Shown in pieces: positions 33,819-43,041 of a stretch of 43,041 bases of DNA; within the stretch, counting starts at the first letter, position 1, and every line of letters begins with the position of its first letter. The notes below the pieces were generated by a model. It saw only the letters and a list, made by a program, of their open reading frames with translations, searched no databases and was not told the DNA's origin. The translations under genes were made by a program, and so were the position numbers. Source of the stretch: Oscillospiraceae bacterium (GTDB taxonomy: Bacteria; Bacillota; Clostridia; Oscillospirales; Oscillospiraceae); contig CACYHB010000013.1 of the NCBI GenBank assembly GCA_902774015.1, positions 1 to 43,041 on the forward strand, read 5' to 3'.

Positions 33819-33956
33819 GTCCGGAGTCGAGTTTTTCGGTTCTTCGGACCTTTTCGCGTTGAGTGCAGGGCTCTCGGCGTGCTTTCTCCCCGGGCCTCCG
33901 CAGCCGCGCGTCCGGTGCGGCGGCGGAGCGGGGCGCGGCTTCGTTTTTCGCTTCGG

Positions 33957-36410
33957 TCAGACGCTTTTCAGCGTGATCGTTTTCTCCCCGCAGCCCTCGG
34001 CTTCGATACGTACCCGGATCTCGCCCGCTTCCTCCGTGCTGCGGACGACTGCCATCACACGGCCGTCGAAGGTCTCCCAGGCGCTGTCCCGGTAGCTCCC
34101 CTCGCACTGAGGATGGGCGGAACCGAAGCCCGCAAGCACCCCTGCGCCATCGACCGTGACCGTGACCCTGCGCTTTTCAAAGCGGCTGGGCAGGCCGTTT
34201 TCGTCGAGCAGATCCACGGTAACGAAGGCCGCGCCGCGGCCGTCGGCGGTGATGCATTCATTTTCCGCCGTGACGCCGAGCTTGACGGGCGCGCCTGCCG
34301 AACGCAGCGCAAAGCGCCCGTCTTCTTTGCCCTTCGTATAACCGACGGCCAGCAGCTCGCCGGGGGCATAGTTCAGCGCAAAGGCGGCCTCGTGCCGCTC
34401 GGTGGCTCTGCGTCCCAGGGAGACCCCGTTCAGGAAAAGCTCAACTTCCTCAGACGCGGAAAGCACGTGTGCCACAGTCGCTTTGCCTTCAAAGCCGGGC
34501 CAGGTCCAGCTGTCGATGGCGTCATAGTATTTCCAGTCGTTGCTGTTGTCCGGCTGACCGAAGCGGTCCAGACGCTCCACGGCGATCATGGGCTCACGGC
34601 GCAGGCCGTAGGCGATCTCACGCAGATAGCTCACCGGGCGGCGGTACGCGTTGAGATTGATGTCCCCGCAGTAGGCGAGCCTGTCGGGGTACCAGCCCTG
34701 CTCGCGGCGCTCCGGGGCGTAGTGGTAGCAGGCGATACCCGCTTCTCCCAGGTAATCATAGCCCGTCCACGTGAAGTCGCCCAGGACGTGGGGATTGCGT
34801 TCGGCGATCTCCCACAGGCGCGCGATCTCGGTGGGGTAGGTTTCGCTGCCCACGACCACGCGCTCGGGGTGCAGAAGATGCTCCAGCTCATGCCGGGCGG
34901 TCAGGTAGTTATAGCCCACCACGTCCAGCTCACAGGCCACCTCCTCCATCGCTTCGGAAAGGCCGCGGCTGGTGGAAAAAGCGTCCATTTTCCGCTGCTC
35001 CATCTTGGCCATGGCTGCGTTGAGAGCCTCGCTGCCGGAGGAGTCCCCCTGCTCCTGCGGCGTTTCCTCCGTTCCCGCCATCAGCGCGACCATCTCGTCG
35101 ACGTGATCCGCCATGGCGAGGAAACCGTTGATGGCCCCGGTCACGTAGCGCGTGCCGTCCAGCTCGCGCAGATAGTTGGCCATCTCGCGGTTGCGCCGTC
35201 CGCCGCTGCGGCGGCCGATCTCCGGGATCTCGTTGCCGAGACTGTAGAGCACGACGCAGGGGTGGTTATAATCCTTGGCGACCAGGCGCTCGATACTCAG
35301 CCGCCATTCGCCGACCAGGTCCAGCGCGTAGTCCGCGCTGTTCTTCGGCATCTCCCACATGTCCGACAGCTCGTCCATGACCAGGATGCCGAGACGGTCG
35401 CAGACGTCCAGCAGGGCCTTGCCCGCCGGGTGATGAGCCGAACGGATGGCGTTGAAGCCCGCTGCCTTGAGCTGTCGCATGCGGTATTCTTCCGCGTCGG
35501 GCAGGGTGGTGGCGCCGATCAGGCCGTTGTCGTGGTGGATGCAGGCGCCGCGCAGCTTATACGCAGCGCCGTTGATGCGCAGGCCGCGCCGGGCGTCCAG
35601 GCTGAGTTTCCGGATGCCGAAGCTGCCCTCGGCGCGATCCAGAAGGCTTTCCCCCTCAAAAAGCTCCGCGCGCCAGGCATACATGGCCGGGTGCTCCGGG
35701 TTCCAAAGCTCGGGATCGTCCACGACAAAGCGCAGGTGGGACTTCACTTCCTCCGTCTGGAGGACGGAAACCACATTCTCAGCGCTCGTCTCCCGCCCGT
35801 CCGGGGCGGTGAGGGTCACGCGCAGGCACAGCTTTTTCGCCTCCAGGCCGCTGTTGCGAACAGAGACGTCCGCCAGCACCAGAGCATAGCGGTCTGCCAG
35901 CTCTGCCGTGGTAAGCCTCACGCCCTCGGGCTGCACATGGATGCGCTCACCCTGCCAGAGCCAGACGTCCCGGTACAGCCCCGCGCCGGGGTACCAGCGG
36001 GAGCCGTTCTCCGCACCTCTGGCGATGACCTGCAGCACGTTCTCCTCGCCGCAGCGAAGCCGGCCGTTGAGTTCGGCATAAAACTGGGAATAGCCGTAAT
36101 GATTCGCGGCAATCAGCTCGCCGTTGAGGTAAACCATGGCCTGGGCCATGACGCCCTCGAATTCCAGCGTATTCTGCTTCTGTTCCCACTCACAGGGTGC
36201 AAAGAAGCGCTTTTCATAGGTATAGGATTTCACCGGGTAATAGCCGGTCTGGTTGCCGCTGGGAGCGTCCGGGCGGCGCTCCTCCAGGATCATCGCGTCC
36301 TGGGGAAGCACGACGGGCACGGCCTCCGGCTCGGAACCGAAGATCACGCCGAAGGGATTGGGCACGCCGGGCCGTACGGTCCAGCCGGTATTGAAAAGCT
36401 GCCTGCGCAT
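33957..36410 (-). CDS. Beta-galactosidase, glycoside hydrolase family 2
   Basis: 817-aa enzyme without a signal peptide, thus cytosolic; it would release galactose from imported beta-galactosides. Order: sugar-binding jelly roll (about 5-165, YEKRFFAPCEW, NGELIAANHYGYSQF, RWYPGAGLYRDVWL), Ig-like domain (about 170-270), and TIM barrel (about 275-600) with acid/base E394 in YSLGNEIPE and nucleophile E523 in VVGSETYPTE. C-terminal Ig-like domains (DUF4982-type, then a domain with FVTVDLLDENG) end the protein. ATG 36410 has GAAGGA/AAGGAG above it. It is a single gene with its own promoter, about 4 kb upstream of the galactanase operon. Confidence 0.93.
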   Translation of the reverse strand: MRRQLFNTGWTVRPGVPNPFGVIFGSEPEAVPVVLPQDAMILEERRPDAPSGNQTGYYPVKSYTYEKRFFAPCEWEQKQNTLEFEGVMAQAMVYLNGELIAANHYGYSQFYAELNGRLRCGEENVLQVIARGAENGSRWYPGAGLYRDVWLWQGERIHVQPEGVRLTTAELADRYALVLADVSVRNSGLEAKKLCLRVTLTAPDGRETSAENVVSVLQTEEVKSHLRFVVDDPELWNPEHPAMYAWRAELFEGESLLDRAEGSFGIRKLSLDARRGLRINGAAYKLRGACIHHDNGLIGATTLPDAEEYRMRQLKAAGFNAIRSAHHPAGKALLDVCDRLGILVMDELSDMWEMPKNSADYALDLVGEWRLSIERLVAKDYNHPCVVLYSLGNEIPEIGRRSGGRRNREMANYLRELDGTRYVTGAINGFLAMADHVDEMVALMAGTEETPQEQGDSSGSEALNAAMAKMEQRKMDAFSTSRGLSEAMEEVACELDVVGYNYLTARHELEHLLHPERVVVGSETYPTEIARLWEIAERNPHVLGDFTWTGYDYLGEAGIACYHYAPERREQGWYPDRLAYCGDINLNAYRRPVSYLREIAYGLRREPMIAVERLDRFGQPDNSNDWKYYDAIDSWTWPGFEGKATVAHVLSASEEVELFLNGVSLGRRATERHEAAFALNYAPGELLAVGYTKGKEDGRFALRSAGAPVKLGVTAENECITADGRGAAFVTVDLLDENGLPSRFEKRRVTVTVDGAGVLAGFGSAHPQCEGSYRDSAWETFDGRVMAVVRSTEEAGEIRVRIEAEGCGEKTITLKSV

Positions 36411-36459
36411 ATGTATCCTTCTCCTTTGAAATTCCTGAGGACGGAAATCCGCCCTCCTT

Positions 36460-36489
36460 ATCATACACTGACTGCCTGCCGGTTTTCAA
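36460..36489 (-). promoter_or_regulatory. Promoter of the GH2 gene
   Basis: Minus strand TTGAAA (36484-36489), 18-nt spacer, TATGAT (36460-36465). Below it, CGGAAATCCG near 36441-36450 is a short palindrome that might be an operator. Confidence 0.72.
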
Positions 36490-36601
36490 GTTGCCATTGC
36501 GAACTGCACGGCATATGTCGTCCGGGAAAACGTCCGGGCATTTTTTCTCCCGGCTTTGCTGTCATTACTTTTTCCGTCCGGTTCTTCCGATCCAGGCGGC
36601 A

Positions 36602-36636
36602 GGAAACGGCATCGCCGCTTGCGCGATGCCGTTTCC
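36602..36636 (-). terminator. Hairpin after the seven-gene operon
   Basis: Perfect 14-bp stem GGAAACGGCATCGC / GCGATGCCGTTTCC with a 7-nt loop, 50 nt past the last stop. There is no U tract on the minus strand; the T-rich side favours plus. Confidence 0.45.
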
Positions 36637-36685
36637 CTGTTTCCCTTTTTTCTTCATGCGGGATCCTTGTCGGCGTCCGGTTTCC

Positions 36686-37459
36686 TCATGCCTGAAGCGT
36701 GGGGAAATAGGGGCAATCCCGGAAAAGGCACTCCCGGTTTTCGCGGAAATAGCGGCAGGATACCTTGCCGAGAGGCATCTCAACGCCTAAAAGCTCTTCC
36801 GTGAAAGCGGCGGCGCGCGTGATGGTAAGCCGGCCGGTGCGCTTGCAGCAGCGTGGACCGCCTGCATCGGCGATCGCGTTCAGGCAGTCGGCAACGAGGC
36901 GCTGTGGGATGGGCCAGGCCTCCTTGTGCAGGGGGTTGGAGCCCAGAAGGATGCTCATATAGATCCCCGCTCCGGCCGCCGCACCGCAGACGCCCCAATA
37001 GCCGCAGGCACCGCCCGGCACCTGGGAGGCGCGGCGCACCGCCTCCCGCAGCGCTTTCTCCAGATGGATCTCCCCGCCGTTGTTGCGGTAGGCGGTCAGC
37101 AGCACACAGGGGACGATGACGTGGTGCTCCGGCCCGTGCATGTGCACCTGGCGCAGCGCGACCACCTGCTCGAAAAGCGCAAGCGGGTCCTTTTCCGTAC
37201 CGGCAAGCAGGAGTGGGACGAAAAAGGCAATGGATGAAGACGCATGGCAGCTGTCGCAGACGAAGTGGCCGTCCTCGCAGGCGGCGTTTGCGTCGGCCTC
37301 TTTCCCGCAGACAGAGCAGCGCAGCGGACGCGTTTCGCCGAAATAGGTCAGGGGCTTCCCGCACAGGAGGCAGCCCGTTTTGTGCTGCGCCCTGTCCGGT
37401 GCAGGGGATGGCTGGCAGCAGCAGTTCTCCTCTGCCTGTTTCTTTTTGATCTCGGTCAT
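36686..37459 (-). CDS. DUF5714-type zinc-ribbon protein
   Basis: 257-aa cytosolic protein. The N-terminus has CCCQ, then two CxxC ribbons, GCLLCGKPLTYF and RCSVCGKEADANAACEDGHFVCDSCH (about residues 30-72). The rest is a helical domain with QVHMHGPEHHVIVPCVLLTAY and GGACGYWGVCGAAAGAGI (about 148-165). The end is a further Cys cluster, CRYFRENRECLFRDCPYFP. I recognise the layout as DUF5714; the function is unknown. I chose the ATG at 37459, which overlaps the CoA-ligase stop as ATGA and has GGAGG. Last gene of the TrsS-type operon. Confidence 0.82.
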   Translation of the reverse strand: MTEIKKKQAEENCCCQPSPAPDRAQHKTGCLLCGKPLTYFGETRPLRCSVCGKEADANAACEDGHFVCDSCHASSSIAFFVPLLLAGTEKDPLALFEQVVALRQVHMHGPEHHVIVPCVLLTAYRNNGGEIHLEKALREAVRRASQVPGGACGYWGVCGAAAGAGIYMSILLGSNPLHKEAWPIPQRLVADCLNAIADAGGPRCCKRTGRLTITRAAAFTEELLGVEMPLGKVSCRYFRENRECLFRDCPYFPTLQA

Positions 37460-38631
37460 CGTTCCTCCACCTTTCGTTTTCCCGCATAGAGGCTGCGGTC
37501 CTCCGGCCTCGCCGGGCGGACTTCTGTTTCGGCGTCCAGTGCGGGCAGAACGCCTTCGCCGCAGGTCAGGATCTGAAGATGCAGTCTGCCCTCCCGCCGC
37601 TCCGCGCGGTAGTCGGCAACGAAGGGCAGCGAAAACAGTGTTTCGTCCAGGGCTGCCAGCTCCGCCGTCTCCTTGCGGCGCACGGTATCGAGCCGCAGCA
37701 CTTCGCTGCCGCAGGGACATCTGCCGGGAATCACCCGGGTATAGTCGCCGGTGCGGTAGCGGATCAGGGGCATGGCCTCCATGCCGATGGTGGTGATGAC
37801 CAGCTCCCCGGTCTCGCCCGGCGGCAGCGGGCGGCCCTGCTCGTCAACAATCTCGGCGATCACATGGTTTTCCCGCAGGTGCATGCCCTCGTGGGCGCTG
37901 CAGCATATGGCTCCGCCCAGCGCCATCTCCCGCGAACCGTAATGGGGGAAAAGGCGGCTTTGCAGGATCGCCTCGCAGCCCCTGAGAACGGCGTTGGGGC
38001 AGGCGTCGCCGCTGACGAGGGCCCGCTTCAGACTGCCCCGGCCGCAGACGCGCAGCAGCGAGAGGAGCTGTACCGGCATACCCACAAAGGTGTCCGGTTT
38101 TTCTTTTTCCAGCACCGCGGAAAATTCGCCGTAGCTGAGCCCGACGCCCAGCCGGAGGGGTCTTGCTCCGAGGCGCCCGATCGCCTCCGCGATCAGTTCC
38201 CCCAGGCCGTGCGGCCCGGAGAAGGGAAAGCAGACCATGGTGACGCTGCCGGGAAAGATCAGTTCTCCCAGGCCCGCCGCAAAGAGCTCCACGGTGTGCT
38301 CGCAGTCGCCTTCCGTGTAAAACACCCGCTTGGCGGCGCCGGTGGTGCCGGAGGTCGCGTCGGAGAGCACCCGCTGCACCTCCGCCTGGGAGCAGAGCAG
38401 CAGTCCCGATGCCTGATGGGCCAGATCCTCGTCCGTGGTAAAGGGGAGGGAGGCAAGCTCGGAAAGCGAATCCAGATGCCCGGGCAAATCCCGGTAGAAG
38501 CCGCCCCGCTCTTTTTCGCGGCCGAGCAGGACGTTGAGTTTCCGGAGCTGCAGCAGTTCAATGCTCGCTCTGGTAACAGGCGTCAATCCCTCCTGCGCAG
38601 ACAGAAGAGCGTCGATTCGGGAGAGCGTCAT
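37456..38631 (-). CDS. AMP-dependent CoA ligase-like protein (DVU_1553 type)
   Basis: 391-aa adenylate-forming enzyme of the phenylacetate-CoA-ligase-like branch. ATP loop SDATSGTTGAAKRVFYT (about residues 90-106). Mid-motif FPHYGSREMALGGAICC, then TGELVITTIGMEAMPLIRYRTGDYT (about 283-307, with the RTGD hinge), and a Cys pair GRCPCGSE. The C-terminal lysine domain is short, AGKRKVEER. It would activate a carboxylate as acyl-AMP and pass it to CoA or another thiol. The substrate is unknown. ATGA overlaps at both ends show tight coupling with the radical SAM gene and DUF5714. Confidence 0.82.
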   Translation of the reverse strand: MTLSRIDALLSAQEGLTPVTRASIELLQLRKLNVLLGREKERGGFYRDLPGHLDSLSELASLPFTTDEDLAHQASGLLLCSQAEVQRVLSDATSGTTGAAKRVFYTEGDCEHTVELFAAGLGELIFPGSVTMVCFPFSGPHGLGELIAEAIGRLGARPLRLGVGLSYGEFSAVLEKEKPDTFVGMPVQLLSLLRVCGRGSLKRALVSGDACPNAVLRGCEAILQSRLFPHYGSREMALGGAICCSAHEGMHLRENHVIAEIVDEQGRPLPPGETGELVITTIGMEAMPLIRYRTGDYTRVIPGRCPCGSEVLRLDTVRRKETAELAALDETLFSLPFVADYRAERREGRLHLQILTCGEGVLPALDAETEVRPARPEDRSLYAGKRKVEER

Positions 38632-39947
38632 CGGTAGAGCGCCTCCCCGTTACGGTTCGTCAGATTATAGGCGCAGAAAGGCACCATGCCGTATCGGCTG
38701 TCCACCTCGCAGATGTGGCAGCGGCGCAGCCGATCCAGATCCAGGTTCCACGCGTCCTGAAACACCATGCCGGACACGGCAAAGGTGCTGCGCCGCGCCT
38801 GCTCCAGAAAGGCGTCCAGCGCGGAGGTCTCGGTGAGGGCGTCGTCCTCGCCAAAGGCGGACACAGAGCCGCTCCACTGGTCGGCCACGGAGGTACGCGA
38901 ATCGTCGGAACTCGTACAGCAGCACTCGCCGCTCTGCCGGCGGGGAAGGCTCTTGAGCGTGCCGTCAGGGCGGATGCGATAGCTCGCGTGGAAGGAGCAG
39001 TAGGCGCTCTCCGCCCCGCCGCCGTAGAAATCGGAGGCGTGCAGCAGACCGTCTGTCTGCTCTTCGATGAGAGCGAGGAGCTTGGGGATCGTGATCGGTC
39101 GCTCCGGCCTTTCGAGGCCGCAGCGACCGAAATAGCTCAGGGGCTGGAAATGCACGCCGCGCACGGCGGGGGCGTTTTCCAGCGCATAGCGGAGGATCGG
39201 GCCGACCTGATCCTCGTTCACGCCGCGCGCGATCACCGGGACGAGCACGACGCCCAGTCCCGCCGAGGCGCAGGCTTCGATGCAGCGCTTTTTCTCCGCA
39301 AGCAGCGCGCGGCCTCTCAATATTATGTAAACCGAATCGTCGAGCGCGTCAAATTGCAGAAACACCGTATTGAGTCCGGCCTCCCGGAGCGTTTCGGCGT
39401 AACCCGGCTCCGCGGCCAGGCGCAGCCCGTTGGTGTTGAGCTGGAAGAAGGTGAAGCCTTTTTCGCGCCCCATGCGGAGGATCTGGGGCAGATCGTCCCG
39501 CACCGTCGGCTCGCCGCCGGAGAGCTGAATGTTGAACGGGCCGCCGTGGGCCATCAGATAATCGTATTGCTTTTCGATCTCCGCAAGCGGGAGATCTGGC
39601 GCGGGTTCTTCTCCCGCGGCGGCGAAGCAGACCGGGCAGCGCAGATTGCAGCGCCGCGTCAGCTCCAGCAGCATGCAGCAGCCCTTGCGCAGATGCTCGG
39701 TACAGAGGCCGCAGTCGTTGGGGCAGCCCTTTTTCGGCGCACGCCCCTCGCGCGGGGGATCGACGACGGTGTTTTCACTGTTCCAGTGCAGATAAGAGGC
39801 AAGATTGCCCTCCCAGATCAAAGCGGAAAAAACGCCGTGCTCGTCACAGTGCTTGTCGAGATAGATACCGTCCTTTTCCGAGCGCTTCTGCGCGTCGAGG
39901 ACGCGCAGACAGACCGGGCAGACGCTTTTGGTTTTTCCGATGATCAT
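38628..39947 (-). CDS. TrsS-like radical SAM protein
   Basis: 439-aa radical SAM enzyme. Order: N-terminal metal-binding region with CPVC (10-13) and the pattern LDKHCDEHG (30-38); a second Cys group CPNDCGLC (75-82); the radical SAM cluster motif CNLRCPVC (C100, C104, C107); LSGGEPTVRDDL (about 138-149). The C-terminal Cys-rich end has ECCC and CHICEVDSRYGMVPFC. The layout matches, from memory, the radical SAM (seleno)protein TrsS family (DVU_1554 position). Here the key positions are cysteine and no in-frame UGA is needed. It starts inside the stop of the C-GCAxxG-C-C gene (ATGA). The reaction is not known. Confidence 0.85.
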   Translation of the reverse strand: MIIGKTKSVCPVCLRVLDAQKRSEKDGIYLDKHCDEHGVFSALIWEGNLASYLHWNSENTVVDPPREGRAPKKGCPNDCGLCTEHLRKGCCMLLELTRRCNLRCPVCFAAAGEEPAPDLPLAEIEKQYDYLMAHGGPFNIQLSGGEPTVRDDLPQILRMGREKGFTFFQLNTNGLRLAAEPGYAETLREAGLNTVFLQFDALDDSVYIILRGRALLAEKKRCIEACASAGLGVVLVPVIARGVNEDQVGPILRYALENAPAVRGVHFQPLSYFGRCGLERPERPITIPKLLALIEEQTDGLLHASDFYGGGAESAYCSFHASYRIRPDGTLKSLPRRQSGECCCTSSDDSRTSVADQWSGSVSAFGEDDALTETSALDAFLEQARRSTFAVSGMVFQDAWNLDLDRLRRCHICEVDSRYGMVPFCAYNLTNRNGEALYR

Positions 39948-40369
39948 AGCAGTCCCCGCTCCGACAAGATCTCCATGCATTTTTCAAAGGTGGCCGCGAT
40001 GATCTGCGGGCAGTATTCCACGCGCTTGGCGGGATTGCCCTTCGTGATGTCGCGGCAGTCGATCCCGCCGTATTCGGCGGTCATCTCCTCCTCAAACCAC
40101 CGGGTGAATTCACCCAGGGCCGGCTTGTGCTGCGGATCGTCGAAGCCGGTATCCTCACCCTTGCCGGTGAAATACGAGATCAGGCAGGCGCCGCCCGTCA
40201 TGCAGCCGCAGCAGCCTTGGGAAAAGCCCACGCCGCCGTTGAGACCGCCCATGGCCTTGACGAGGCCGGGGTTTTCCTCGCCCAGCGTATCCAGCATCAG
40301 GATCGCCAGGATCTGGCTGCAGAAATAGCCGTAACGGCTCAATTCCATCACGCGGTCAAACAGATCCAT
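39944..40369 (-). CDS. C-GCAxxG-C-C family redox protein (DVU_1555 type)
   Basis: 141-aa small helical protein of the C_GCAxxG_C_C family. CSQILAILML sits near residue 17. The motif region GGVGFSQGCCGCMTGGACLISYF (about 46-68) holds the conserved Gly/Cys pattern, and a late Cys pair lies in CRDITKG and EYCPQII. Members are thought to carry redox-active cysteines or a cofactor and often sit by metabolic oxidoreductases. I chose the ATG at 40369, with AAGGA 9 nt before, 2 nt after the methyltransferase stop. It is coupled to TrsS by the ATGA overlap. Confidence 0.85.
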   Translation of the reverse strand: MDLFDRVMELSRYGYFCSQILAILMLDTLGEENPGLVKAMGGLNGGVGFSQGCCGCMTGGACLISYFTGKGEDTGFDDPQHKPALGEFTRWFEEEMTAEYGGIDCRDITKGNPAKRVEYCPQIIAATFEKCMEILSERGLL

Positions 40370-40371
40370 GC

Positions 40372-40887
40372 TTATCCGTCCTTTCTTCCGATCAGCAGCC
40401 AGTAGCTGCACTTCCCTTTCGGGATCTCACAGCAGGGCGCGTCGCCGCGCCAGAGAGCCTCCAGATAATACTCCCGCCATGCGTCCGTCAGATCCTCGGC
40501 GCAGAGCAGCGTAAAGCCGGCCGCGCGCAGCAGCGCCGCCGGGTCGTCAAAGAACAGATCCGACAGCAGCAGCTTCCCGCCCGGCTTCAGCAGCCGCCGG
40601 GCCTCACGCAGCGCGCCGCGTTGATCACCCGAGACGAAAAACGCGCACTCGCTCAGCACCGCATCAAAGCTCGCGTCGGGAAAGCCCGTACACAGCAGGT
40701 CGCCCCGCTCGACCGATTCCCCGCGCGGCTCAAGATCGATCCCCCGCGCCGCATAACCCATCCCGCGCAGCAGCGCAAGCGCTTCGCCCGCGCCCGCGCC
40801 GAGATCGAGCACCGAAACGCCCTGCGGCAGCGCCGCCAGCTCGATGAGACGGCGGGTGTGCGCCTCGCCGCCGGGGTGGCTCCTCAT
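40372..40887 (-). CDS. SAM-dependent methyltransferase (DVU_1556/TrsM type)
   Basis: 171-aa class I methyltransferase. It begins MRSHPGGEAHTRRLIELAAL, then motif I VLDLGAGAGEALALL (about residues 26-40), the acidic end of strand 2 GIDLEP, FDAVLSECAFF (motif IV region) and RRLLKPGGKLLLSDLF (about 96-111). The HPGG N-terminus is a feature I associate with the TrsS-linked methyltransferase family. The substrate is unknown. Genes on both sides are in the same operon, with a 4-nt overlap to the mini redox protein. Confidence 0.83.
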   Translation of the reverse strand: MRSHPGGEAHTRRLIELAALPQGVSVLDLGAGAGEALALLRGMGYAARGIDLEPRGESVERGDLLCTGFPDASFDAVLSECAFFVSGDQRGALREARRLLKPGGKLLLSDLFFDDPAALLRAAGFTLLCAEDLTDAWREYYLEALWRGDAPCCEIPKGKCSYWLLIGRKDG

Positions 40888-41105
40888 TTGTCCTCCAGCG
40901 CCCGTTCAACGGACGCCACCTTGCCCAGCGCCAGCTCCTCCGGCACGTAGACGAAGCCGCAGACCGGGCAAACAGGGAGCTCCACGGGAAAGCCGTTGTC
41001 CAGATACAGGAACTTGGCTTTACCCTTGACGAGAGGCACGCCGCATTTGACGCACCTGAGCTTTCCCTGCGGGTCTATGGTGTAATAGTTTTTCTCGATG
41101 GCCAT
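40884..41105 (-). CDS. Small CxxC redox/zinc-ribbon protein (DVU_1557 type)
   Basis: 73 aa. It has two CxxC knuckles, LRCVKCGVPL (C18, C21) and PVCPVCGFVYVPEE (C46, C49), as in rubredoxin-like or zinc-ribbon folds. GAGGGATAAGC stands before the ATG. It lies 2 nt after the oxidoreductase stop and overlaps the methyltransferase start. It could shuttle electrons between the large oxidoreductase and TrsS (inference). Confidence 0.82.
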   Translation of the reverse strand: MAIEKNYYTIDPQGKLRCVKCGVPLVKGKAKFLYLDNGFPVELPVCPVCGFVYVPEELALGKVASVERALEDK

Positions 41106-41107
41106 GC

Positions 41108-43041
41108 TTATCCCTCTCTCTTTTCCACACGCATCCGGTGGCTCCAGGCGCGGTGTACCAGGAAGCCCCCGTCCGTGCGGCTGAACTTCACCCAGAAGGT
41201 GGCGTTGCCGACGCGCTTTCTCGCGGCCAGCAGACCGTCCTCGTCCTCGATGGCCTCGCCGCTGATACGGAAGTCCTCCAGCACGGCGATCACGTCGTCG
41301 GTCAGGATCATGCGGTCATCCATCATGCGCCGGGCCTCATCGGTATAGTTCAGTTCAAAATCCAGCTTCATCTCAGCCGTCTCCTCATGCCACAGATCCA
41401 ACAGCAGTTCCTTTTTCAGCGCAAGGCGGTTGCGGCGCTTTTCGCTGATATCCGGGGGATTGCCCGCGTCCGTGCCGTAGCACAGCTCCAGCAGGTGGCG
41501 GGATTCCCGCCCCTGCCGGGCGAAGCGGTCGCGGCAGGCCATGCAGTAGCTGATGTAGGGCGCGTCCGAGCGCTCGAGACATTTCTCCGTCATCTCACCC
41601 GCCACCTCGCGGTTGGCGTAGGCGGTCAGGCCGCCGTAGCCGCAGCAGGGGGAGCGGTCGCCGGAATAGGGAGTGTCGATCAGCTCACAGCCCAGCCGGA
41701 CAGCCAGCGTGCGGATGGCAGCCTGGGTCTCTTCGTCGCCGCGGGCGCCGCAGGAATCGTGCAGCGCCGCCGGACGGTCGAGTCCGTGCGCGCCCTCCGG
41801 CAGCCCGCGTTCGAGCAAAACGTCCCAGATGCCTTTTATGGTAATGCCCTCGTGGGTCGAAAGCTCTTTTTTACAGGTCGGGCAGCCCGCGATCACGATC
41901 GGATCGCCGAGCCGCGCAAGCTCGCGGTCAATGAATTCCCGCGTCTGCGCCTCCATCTCATAGCGCCCTGCCCAGTCGCAGATGGCGCCGCAGCAGCCCA
42001 GCATCAGCGCCACGCCTCCGGGGAGTCTGGCGCAGAGGTCCTCATAGGCGGCGCGCACCGTCTGCGGTGCGATGGCCGCGGCCTGACAGCCGGGGAAGAA
42101 AACATATCTGCACCGCTCAAAGCCCGGCTGGGGCCTTGCGAGGAAGGCCTCCTCATTGGAAAAGAGCATGTCCAGCAGCGCAAACTCATGGGGCGCGAGC
42201 GGCATCTTATCCGTGGAAACCATGTTCTGCCGCGCCAGATGGCACACGCGAGCCATATCAAAGCCGTTGGGACAGACCGCCGTGCACTGTCCGCAGAGCG
42301 AGCAGGCGTTCATCGGTTTGTTCAGCTGATGATCGCCCATGATGATCTGGGTGTTGTTGTAGATCTCCCGGGCCAGCAGGCCGGGATGCTTTTTATAATG
42401 CTTGAGGTAGGCGCAGCTCCTGAGACATTCCTCGCAGTGGCAGCTGATGCAGCGGCCGGCCTCCGCGATCGCCTCTTCCCTGCTGTAGCCGTCCGCCGAC
42501 ACCGGCACGCGCGCAAGGGCTTTGGCCTCGCTGAGATCGGTATAAAGCCTGCTCTCCACCGGCCCCTCCTGTCCGCGGGTGTTGCGCGGATCGAGGTTCT
42601 GGGCCAGCCGGTCCACCGTCAGCGCGGCCTTTTTCGCGCCGAAGGCGGCATCCAGCACGCCCGCGGTCCGCCCGCTGACGAGGTGCTCGGCCTCGCAGTA
42701 CATCAGCTCCGGGATCGCTTCGCTGTCCGGGAAAACGGCTGCTCTGACGTCGTCCGAGGCGCACAGGACGTCAAAGGATGCTTTTTTTGTATCATAGAAC
42801 GCCGCGTCGAGGCGGCAGTTGCATTCGAACTGAATGTCCTTCCCGCGCAGGCGCCTGAGTTCCAGGCGGAAAGCTTCCTCCTCCAGGAAGGGCGCGGCGG
42901 TGCGCAGCCAGCTCTCCTCATCCGGCTCCTCGCAGAATACCTTGACCGGATAGGCCTTCTTTTCCAGCTCGCCCGCCAGCAGCAGCGGGAAGAGTCCGGA
43001 ACCGAAAACAGCCGTCGTTTTTCGCTTCTTGCTCCGGAAGA
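41108..43041 (-). CDS. Pyridine-nucleotide oxidoreductase / dicluster / CCG-domain protein (5' end off the window)
   Basis: The open frame has no start before the window edge, so at least 644 codons are visible and the N-terminus is missing. Visible order: Rossmann dinucleotide motif TTAVFGSGLFPLLLAGELEK near the edge, CNCRLDAA, then a linker. A dicluster ferredoxin part follows: CISCHCEECLRSC and ACSLCGQCTAVCPNGF. Then come two CCG-type domains (FFPGCQAAA...LGCCGAICD, CPTCKKEL, DSCGARG...SPCCGYGG, CMACRDRF), as in HdrB/GlpC. A C-terminal region ends FWVKFSRTDGGFLVH. An internal ATG at 42703 is not the start, since the frame and Rossmann fold continue upstream. It probably feeds electrons to the operon's reaction. 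Confidence 0.85.
   Translation of the reverse strand, partial: FRSKKRKTTAVFGSGLFPLLLAGELEKKAYPVKVFCEEPDEESWLRTAAPFLEEEAFRLELRRLRGKDIQFECNCRLDAAFYDTKKASFDVLCASDDVRAAVFPDSEAIPELMYCEAEHLVSGRTAGVLDAAFGAKKAALTVDRLAQNLDPRNTRGQEGPVESRLYTDLSEAKALARVPVSADGYSREEAIAEAGRCISCHCEECLRSCAYLKHYKKHPGLLAREIYNNTQIIMGDHQLNKPMNACSLCGQCTAVCPNGFDMARVCHLARQNMVSTDKMPLAPHEFALLDMLFSNEEAFLARPQPGFERCRYVFFPGCQAAAIAPQTVRAAYEDLCARLPGGVALMLGCCGAICDWAGRYEMEAQTREFIDRELARLGDPIVIAGCPTCKKELSTHEGITIKGIWDVLLERGLPEGAHGLDRPAALHDSCGARGDEETQAAIRTLAVRLGCELIDTPYSGDRSPCCGYGGLTAYANREVAGEMTEKCLERSDAPYISYCMACRDRFARQGRESRHLLELCYGTDAGNPPDISEKRRNRLALKKELLLDLWHEETAEMKLDFELNYTDEARRMMDDRMILTDDVIAVLEDFRISGEAIEDEDGLLAARKRVGNATFWVKFSRTDGGFLVHRAWSHRMRVEKREG

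Follow-up and report, generated by a model that had tools for sequence, protein, structure and literature searches.

The stretch of DNA analysed here (the window, 43,041 nucleotides) is the whole of contig CACYHB010000013.1 (C13) of an Oscillospiraceae bacterium of the rumen, whose 2.78-Mb draft genome is spread over 88 contigs; the contig ends at base 43041. Next to that end lie seven minus-strand open frames, none with an internal stop, which include a radical S-adenosylmethionine (SAM) enzyme of the TrsS family and are arranged as follows:

41108..43039, minus strand: DICL (gene 1), a DVU_1558-type dicluster/CCG iron-sulfur protein, its N-terminus cut by the contig end
40884..41105, minus strand: CXXC, a 73-aa redox protein of the DVU_1557 family with two CxxC pairs, rubredoxin-like by eye
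40372..40887, minus strand: MT, a DVU_1556-type class I SAM-dependent methyltransferase (ArsM/UbiE-like)
39944..40369, minus strand: CGCA, a C-GCAxxG-C-C redox protein of the DVU_1555 family, its start codon picked via the 2-nt gap to MT
38628..39947, minus strand: TrsS, a Tes-type radical SAM enzyme
37456..38631, minus strand: LIG, a PaaK/F390-synthetase-like adenylate-forming ligase of the DVU_1553 family
36686..37459, minus strand: a DUF5714 protein with a Cys-rich N-terminus and a weak C-GCAxxG-like core
36686..41107, minus strand: translational coupling through four ATGA overlaps and two 2-nt gaps, read directly from the sequence

The tight junctions described in an earlier, sequence-only reading of this DNA (the original prediction) are all present, the ATGA overlaps at 37456-37459, 38628-38631, 39944-39947 and 40884-40887 and the 2-nt gaps at 40370-40371 and 41106-41107. 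The same reading had called the operon complete-looking. The match of gene 1 starts at position 103 of a 759-position profile, leaving it without about 100 N-terminal residues, and the contig stops at base 43041; that description is therefore wrong, and the aldehyde oxidoreductase gene that precedes gene 1 in other loci is missing.

The missing part could be recognized from relatives. The best 80 of 545 TrsS loci (one genome per species, from a scan with a 17-sequence TrsS alignment), mostly of rumen and gut Firmicutes but also of Sporomusa, Chloroflexi, Spirochaetes and others, were combined with the window into a set of 81. Neighbouring genes were called by homology and length, with no gene finder, and some neighbour families (for example F20 and above) are identified only partly. 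Clustering of the neighbouring frames placed a family of about 917 aa upstream of gene 1 in most loci reaching that far. Its member in locus L063 is a MOP-type aldehyde oxidoreductase (AOR) of family NF045668 (1515.6 bits, cut-off 1100), the nearest solved structures being the Desulfovibrio enzymes 1dgj (1173 bits) and 1sij (1145 bits); the Aor of D. vulgaris is DVU_1559, next in number to the DVU_1551-1558 families. Compared with these full enzymes, the host has only the N-terminal ~245 residues assembled: its sole match to NF045668 covers profile positions 2-244 (429.1 bits against the full-length cut-off of 1100) and is cut by the end of another contig, C51 (5270 bp). Outward from the AOR N-terminus, C51 carries a ~90-aa F08 protein, a TylF-like protein, a DVU_1551-ModE fusion, a His-phosphatase/HD protein and a MoeA-like protein, the last four named by likeness to the families of relatives, and this order is shared with several of them (L062, L063 and L098). 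Compared by AOR, the fragment has 97% identity to L040 and 81% to L063; the TrsS of L040 is 91% identical to that of the window, and the order of the genes matches that in relatives. The window almost certainly holds a TrsS-aldehyde oxidoreductase locus of which only the downstream half is present, cut by the assembly, with an estimated 2.4 kb missing between C51 and C13.

Beyond base 43041 the original prediction looked for a molybdenum hydroxylase, a DVU_1551-like nucleoside triphosphate (NTP) transferase and an XdhC-type factor. The first two are on C51, as the AOR fragment and as a DVU_1551-like protein (198 bits, under the cut-off of 315), but the XdhC-type factor NF045664 gave no match in the host genome at E<=0.001. 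The host MoaA scores over its cut-off, and SelB is represented by one incomplete match, under its cut-off and close to the edge of a contig. At L122:2246-4284 a DVU_1551-type NTP transferase with a ModE-like tail is followed by a His-phosphatase/HD protein, which suggests molybdate control of the locus.

Profile searches upheld the family names given earlier for most of the genes. Over their cut-offs are DICL (NF045663, 660 bits against 530, profile positions 103-758 of 759), CXXC (NF045645, 91.8 against 60; PF24292, 90.9; its CxxC pairs are kept in 39 aligned proteins), CGCA (NF045669, 153.6 against 103; PF09719, 82.6), TrsS (NF045646, 585.2 against 490), LIG (NF045666, 322.3 against 300; with SGTTG and RTGD motifs and the AMP-binding domain PF00501) and the DUF5714 protein (PF18978, 207 against 26.2; PF09719, 18.9, under the cut-off of 27). 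There are weak points: the methyltransferase, with a SAM-type motif DLGAGAG, scores 122.3 bits for NF045667, which is its best family but has a cut-off of 155; the DUF5714 protein is not the selenoprotein MbdU; and the 'flavin' of gene 1 found no support. The name TrsM, which had also been proposed, was not met in the family searches or the literature, and the C-GCAxxG protein has no meaningful match in the PDB. Set against the NCBIfam families of the TrsS/DVU_1551-1558 group, the array is thus alike in having five of the six families for genes 1-6 over cut-off, and unlike in its cysteine rather than selenocysteine form, the sub-cut-off methyltransferase, the lack of a flavin signature in gene 1 of this clade and the DUF5714 gene added at the end.

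Gene content was compared in the 46 of the 81 loci where TrsS has a flank of 8.5 kb or more upstream and of 1.5 kb or more downstream; 35 loci, the window among them, were dropped. The hidden Markov models of this survey derive from these loci themselves, and their score thresholds were set by hand. DICL, the CxxC protein, the methyltransferase, the C-GCAxxG protein and the ligase were each found in 41 of these well-flanked loci and AOR in 40, followed by DVU_1551 (31), F08 (29), XdhC (22), cysteine desulfurase (14) and DUF5714 (3). The TrsS gene set is not a chance grouping. That its parts form one unit, as originally predicted, is borne out by the 41 loci for each of the five families, and the comparison of co-occurrence proposed at that time finds the set clustered, with all five families beside TrsS in 39 of the 46. 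Across all 81 loci, DICL lies downstream of AOR on the same strand for 56 of the 58 AOR matches, within 400 nt in 48 of them (median gap 137.5 nt). AOR is lacking in six well-flanked loci, with TrsS alone in L056, L059, L060 and L093 and other parts present in L071 and L108. The lone TrsS genes of L056, L059 and L060 have the same surroundings on the chromosome, which include genes for topoisomerase and SpoU methylase. Whole-genome searches for 12 loci without a nearby AOR (including L056, L059, L060, L093 and L071, not L108; all metagenome assemblies by their record titles) gave an AOR at E<=1e-100 in eight cases, over cut-off in five.

The association extends to whole genomes. Among 391 genomes of the host's class, TrsS scored over cut-off in 15 and AOR in 14, and these are the same 15 genomes once the split AOR of the host is counted. 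In one further genome (G101) the search gave a fragment of AOR under the cut-off, with TrsS absent at E<=1e-60; four others combine TrsS-like proteins of 341-365 bits, under the cut-off, with the absence of AOR at E<=1e-200. TrsS at E<=1e-60 was also missing from all 17 listed genomes that share the host's family (2) or order (15), and the system is therefore patchy in distribution. In a second phylum, that of L113 (a Syntrophobacteraceae record), 43 of 395 genomes have TrsS, 33 have AOR and 31 have both; of the two genomes with AOR only, one (G732) carries part of a TrsS gene on that same contig and the other (G643) has its AOR truncated by contig ends. The calculated figures 2e-27 and 7e-34 ignore relatedness and are not used as probabilities.

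What the remaining second-phylum loci contain was read from 15 stretches, comprising the 12 TrsS genomes without an AOR over cut-off and three controls. Contig ends account for two of the 12 (L185 has a part-AOR at the edge, and L183 ends inside DICL). Eight (L186-L193) carry a shortened module: the C-terminal ~87-aa domain of DICL as a separate frame (DICLc), the CxxC protein, the methyltransferase and TrsS in 8/8, the ligase in 7/8 (not on the stretch read of L188) and the C-GCAxxG protein only in L191. A dicluster-CCG protein stands in the cluster in these same eight of the 10 AOR-less loci, that of L191 being DsrK-like (326 bits, cut-off 400). Other neighbours were identified only in L184, L186, L188, L190, L191 and L192. 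In L190 they comprise a TfrA-like flavoprotein, TRAP transporter genes, a B12-binding protein and a corrinoid activase; L186 has an activase together with an HGD-D protein, L188 an HGD-D protein, L192 a RACo-type activase together with a TRAP gene, and L191 a histidine kinase. Locus L184 has DICLc, the CxxC and C-GCAxxG proteins, TrsS and ligase, no methyltransferase, and a dimethyl sulfoxide (DMSO)-reductase-family subunit with AsrA- and AsrB-like subunits; L194 has methyltransferase, TrsS, NTP transferase and phosphatase on the 14.8 kb read, with an AOR-like gene (766 bits) about 16 kb from TrsS on the same contig. In L199, from the gut Clostridia genome G111, the order is a weak C-GCAxxG match, DICLc, CxxC protein, methyltransferase, dihydrolipoyl dehydrogenase, two TrsS-like genes and ligase. 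The dihydrolipoyl dehydrogenase (L199:5417-6826; 475.6 bits, cut-off 408.8), which lies between methyltransferase and TrsS, has its redox motif GTCVTRGCIPTK intact.

Judged by gene content, TrsS, the methyltransferase, the ligase, the CxxC protein and DICLc make up a module whose presence does not depend on a neighbouring AOR. Loci L184, L186-L193 and L199 show it to be separable from AOR, and its usual companions are redox proteins, many of families acting on disulfides. The original prediction of a stand-alone pathway does not agree with this picture, in which the unit accompanies a MOP-type AOR in Clostridia and other redox enzymes elsewhere.

Gene 1 combines an HdrC-like dicluster part, two HdrB-like CCG motifs (residues 310-389 and 430-502 in the window; Pfam CCG matched once, at 21.3 bits against a cut-off of 20.6) and DICLc. 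Neither the GxGxxG/A motif for flavin adenine dinucleotide (FAD) nor a second FAD motif, the pattern for which was written after the alignment had been inspected, was found in the window protein. Among 62 DICL proteins of at least 640 aa, GxGxxG/A is kept in 20 and not in 42, and both CCG motifs are present in 61. In a tree of the C-terminal 480 residues only (FastTree, one run), 41 of the 42 motif-less proteins, that of the window included, form one clade with a support of 0.998; the exception is the second copy of L110. On this tree the gut-Firmicutes clade lost its flavin signature in a single event. The flavin oxidoreductase fed by NAD(P)H, as gene 1 had been described, finds no basis here, neither FAD motif being found in the window protein and the signature being lost in 41/41 members of its clade, and since it is lost there a supply of NAD(P)H electrons through a flavin of DICL is unlikely in this host. 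For the same reason DICL was rejected as the missing flavin partner of AOR in the window's clade, a role that its family name had made attractive; such a role may hold for the 20 of 62 that keep the signature. Gene 1 alone has no sequence match in the PDB, and its structural model (37 sequences, mean pLDDT 90.7) resembles NfnABC/StnABC and GltD-type proteins over parts, with a whole-length TM of 0.2-0.33.

The nearest solved relative of TrsS is the tetraether-lipid enzyme GDGT-MAS/Tes, MJ0619 (7tol, 7tom). An AlphaFold2 model of TrsS (41 sequences, mean pLDDT 86.2) matches 7tol with E 1.4e-40 and TMq 0.80, the next structural family being MoaA at 1.8e-12. Besides the fold, the two share the radical SAM motif CX3CX2C (C111/C115/C118; numbering after the 450-aa frame 38628-39980), the rubredoxin-like site CX2CX20CX2H (C21/C24/C45/H48) and the Cys3His N-cluster (C86/C90/C93/H96), all kept in 99-100% of 105 TrsS proteins. 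The ligands of both sites, the radical SAM motif and the labile Met439 are named in the available part of the Tes structure paper (PMC9433317). Met439, a labile ligand of the C-terminal cluster, corresponds by our own counting to TrsS Met405 and is kept in 102/105, the other three being gaps in rows cut short. Of the four Tes cysteines aligned in the same region, two (Cys421 and Cys436) are kept in 102/105, and the other two positions hold Cys in 4% and 18% of TrsS. TrsS differs from Tes in having the invariant Cys101 and Cys328, both lacking in Tes (Cys328 in Mss-like proteins too), another loop with runs of cysteines, other neighbours and no Tyr459. Tyr459 is strictly conserved in archaeal Tes enzymes, although Tes variants without it are still active (PMC9433317, available part); its column in the 105 TrsS reads E 54, V 32, I 10, T 6 and gap 3, never Tyr. 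A further mark of Tes is a pair of hydrophobic pockets for its lipid substrate. The window TrsS scores 320.2 bits for Tes NF045702, under the cut-off of 450, and in FastTree (one run) all 105 TrsS fall in one clade (support 0.991) that excludes Tes as well as four Mss-like proteins and two tandem partners. Within it, eight of the 10 AOR-less TrsS group with L019 and L032 (0.984), and L184 and L194 lie among AOR-type sequences.

Several further observations concern this enzyme. Runs of adjacent cysteines occur in the flexible loop of 95/105 TrsS and are not special to the family, being present in three of four Mss-like proteins as well; in a Lachnospiraceae record (L090:10001-11690) the loop has grown into a long CCC/CCCC-G-E repeat. 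A suspected excess of loop cysteines in TrsS of cysteine-desulfurase loci was too weak to keep (rank test p = 0.043 on related sequences, with the rows of L090, L091 and L109 cut short). In L033 and L036 a second TrsS-like gene stands in tandem, without the N-cluster cysteines, and its match stops before the C-terminal region. The window TrsS is 29.8-31.6% identical to the four Mss-like proteins L025-L028, which are putative Mss, with E values of 4e-62 to 4e-73. A published Mss screen used E<=1e-30 and >30% identity, to go by the available part of PMC13274423, and may have counted TrsS as Mss. That TrsS is itself an Mss was rejected on its separate clade in the tree and on the alignment columns.

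The explanation that we favour combines a TrsS-AOR locus, a separable module and a thiol carrier, and we give it as a whole a probability of about 40%. Its third part, in which the product of the module is a small thiol or dithiol dedicated to electron transfer, is held tentatively, at less than even odds. The ligase would adenylate a carboxylic acid; TrsS would abstract a hydrogen from an unactivated carbon and insert sulfur taken from the [4Fe-4S] cluster near its C-terminus; and the methyltransferase would tailor the product. The CCG site of DICL would then read the thiol/disulfide and pass on electrons from the oxidoreductase, which in this host would come from an aldehyde via the two [2Fe-2S] clusters of AOR. 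For the sulfur step, Tes accumulates substrate with one added sulfur under limiting SAM (PMC9433317, available part), and its named ligands are kept in TrsS. A relative of Tes encoded next to an adenylating ligase and disulfide-acting proteins might halt there and yield a thiol. A disulfide step is supported by the two CCG motifs in 61/62 DICL, the dicluster-CCG protein in 8/10 AOR-less loci and the dihydrolipoyl dehydrogenase of L199, and the cysteine desulfurase of 14/46 well-flanked loci also counts in favour. In its widest form, which we consider rather doubtful, this would be a bacterial pathway for a small thiol/disulfide carrier, a counterpart of methanogen coenzyme M/coenzyme B or of lipoate, made by an adenylating ligase, a methyltransferase and a Tes-type radical SAM enzyme stopping at carbon-sulfur. 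It would be plugged into AOR, TfrA-like flavoprotein, DMSO-reductase-family and 2-hydroxyacyl-CoA dehydratase-like enzymes mostly via an HdrB-like site, and the HdrB-like protein of gut Firmicutes, having lost its flavin, would depend on the carrier.

A number of observations weigh against this explanation. No carrier, substrate or sulfur product was detected in the analysis. CCG proteins serve other enzymes too (GlpC and LdhH are among the DICL profile matches), so that CCG does not prove a disulfide, and DICLc has no conserved Lys or Cys for a prosthetic group, for which reason a group held there was rejected. Cysteine desulfurase was not found in 32/46 well-flanked loci. Because only two of the four Tes cysteines are kept, we are unsure how TrsS would hold the C-terminal cluster, for which the invariant Cys328 might be a stand-in. 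TrsS has no other module part nearby in L056, L059, L060 and L093; AOR at E<=1e-100 is absent from 4/12 genomes searched whose TrsS locus has no nearby AOR; and 12/43 second-phylum TrsS genomes have no AOR over cut-off, two of them through contig ends. L184 shows no CCG protein, L194 has no DICL or AOR match on the 14.8 kb read, where other frames are unassigned to families, and the dihydrolipoyl dehydrogenase case is one locus, in a genome (G111) that has AOR on other contigs.

Of the competing explanations, a pathway for one class of carbon compound, a reshaped form of the original prediction, survives best, and we consider it unlikely. Here AOR would turn an aldehyde into an acid, the ligase would convert the acid to an acyl-CoA or acyl-adenylate, and the methyltransferase and TrsS would remodel it. 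The ligase is indeed PaaK-like, the D. gigas AOR oxidizes aromatic aldehydes (PMC10223205, available part), and the TRAP transporter, TfrA-like, HGD-D, B12-binding and RACo-type activase genes near AOR-less modules are all catabolic in kind. Yet the oxidoreductase varies by locus and the module stays constant, which fits a common cofactor better than a common substrate, and ModABC is the only identified transporter recurring in more than three loci of the neighbour clustering.

It is distinctly improbable that the module handles selenium or a metalloid, the ArsM-like methyltransferase, the Cys-run loop of TrsS and a metal-binding DUF5714 protein together capturing and methylating a soft metal or metalloid. 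Such a role would account for the ArsM families among the matches of the methyltransferase, the vicinal-Cys runs in 95/105 TrsS loops, the kinship of DUF5714 with the selenoprotein MbdU and the sub-cut-off match of the cysteine desulfurase of some loci to selenocysteine lyase SclA, but it leaves the AOR link unexplained, and no arsenic, selenium or mercury transporter or sensor occurs among the identified recurrent neighbour families, others being not identified. The MbdU match itself (NF045648, 151.4 bits) is far under the cut-off of 600, and the DUF5714 protein has no in-frame TGA, two selenocysteines being the mark of MbdU. TrsS of the window likewise has none, selenocysteine being an optional feature of its family, and a selenoprotein operon in the host was rejected, all seven genes being free of in-frame TGA and SelB giving only a partial sub-cut-off match. 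In G111 the weak C-GCAxxG protein (L199:3569-3922) has an in-frame TGA at about the first conserved Cys of the window protein and is a selenoprotein candidate.

Maturation of AOR, in which the module would modify or insert the molybdenum cofactor or modify the AOR protein, is very improbable: the co-occurrence in 15/15 Clostridia genomes and the neighbours for molybdate uptake, molybdopterin cytosine dinucleotide formation and XdhC speak for it, but AOR-less modules exist, two of their partner types (TfrA-like and HGD-D) are not molybdenum enzymes, and 1dgj and 1sij, from species that may or may not carry TrsS, are described in the available part of PMC10223205 as having a second oxo group where Mo would otherwise bear sulfur, together with two Fe/S centres, no FAD and no mention of a modification. 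Membrane lipid synthesis, with TrsS coupling acyl chains like Tes or Mss, is the least probable, for although Tes is the nearest solved and profiled relative, TrsS forms its own clade (0.991, 105/105) apart from Tes and the four Mss-like proteins, misses the Tes cut-off (320/450), never keeps Tyr459 (a point tempered by the active Tes variants of PMC9433317, available part) and has no lipid gene among its identified recurrent neighbours, whereas the Mss-like gene of L203 adjoins an ICMT/phospholipid-methyltransferase-type gene.

On the other side of the array, a glycoside hydrolase family 2 gene (33957-36464) comes 221 nt after the DUF5714 gene and is probably unrelated to the TrsS unit; the 938-aa open frame opposite it (33879-36695, plus strand) is probably a shadow frame.

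Among known systems, the sHdr-LbpA lipoate system (PMC10332631, available part) likewise gathers an Hdr-like enzyme, an adenylating ligase and radical SAM enzymes in one cluster, and so is an example of such a set serving another cofactor. It uses other families of ligase and radical SAM enzyme: a lipoate:protein ligase fold and LipS1/LipS2 mark that system, LIG being PF00501 AMP-binding. No lipoyl-carrier domain was reported among the parts scanned, and the TrsS matches considered (the 25 best of 41 from NCBIfam and three from Pfam) include no lipoyl synthase family; the parallel is one of analogy and not of membership. A 2026 review (PMC13188914, available part) lists TrsS with Haft and Tolstoy 2025 as the source. 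As the component families, including AOR, the XdhC-like factor and DVU_1551, are neighbouring NCBIfam entries (NF045663-NF045669) and TrsS is credited to these authors, we infer that they knew the locus. The original prediction that the system has no known product agrees with the literature found, which names none, the primary source Haft and Tolstoy 2025 lying outside that search; DVU locus tags appear there only in proteomics tables. The counts of co-occurrence, the loss of the flavin signature, the modules lacking AOR and the dihydrolipoyl dehydrogenase locus are results of this analysis and may have been published earlier.

The electron partner of the Desulfovibrio AOR has been an open matter for decades. 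Its conserved DICL neighbour, downstream on the same strand in 56/58 cases and within 400 nt in 48, is a concrete alternative to the flavodoxin that has been proposed as the missing flavin partner (PMC10223205, available part). The loci described here also give the TrsS radical SAM family, whose members occur in Blautia of the gut, Oscillospiraceae of the rumen, Sporomusa and Chloroflexi, a defined enzymatic context. Should the thiol reading prove true, a new bacterial redox cofactor would be within reach of ordinary metabolomics.

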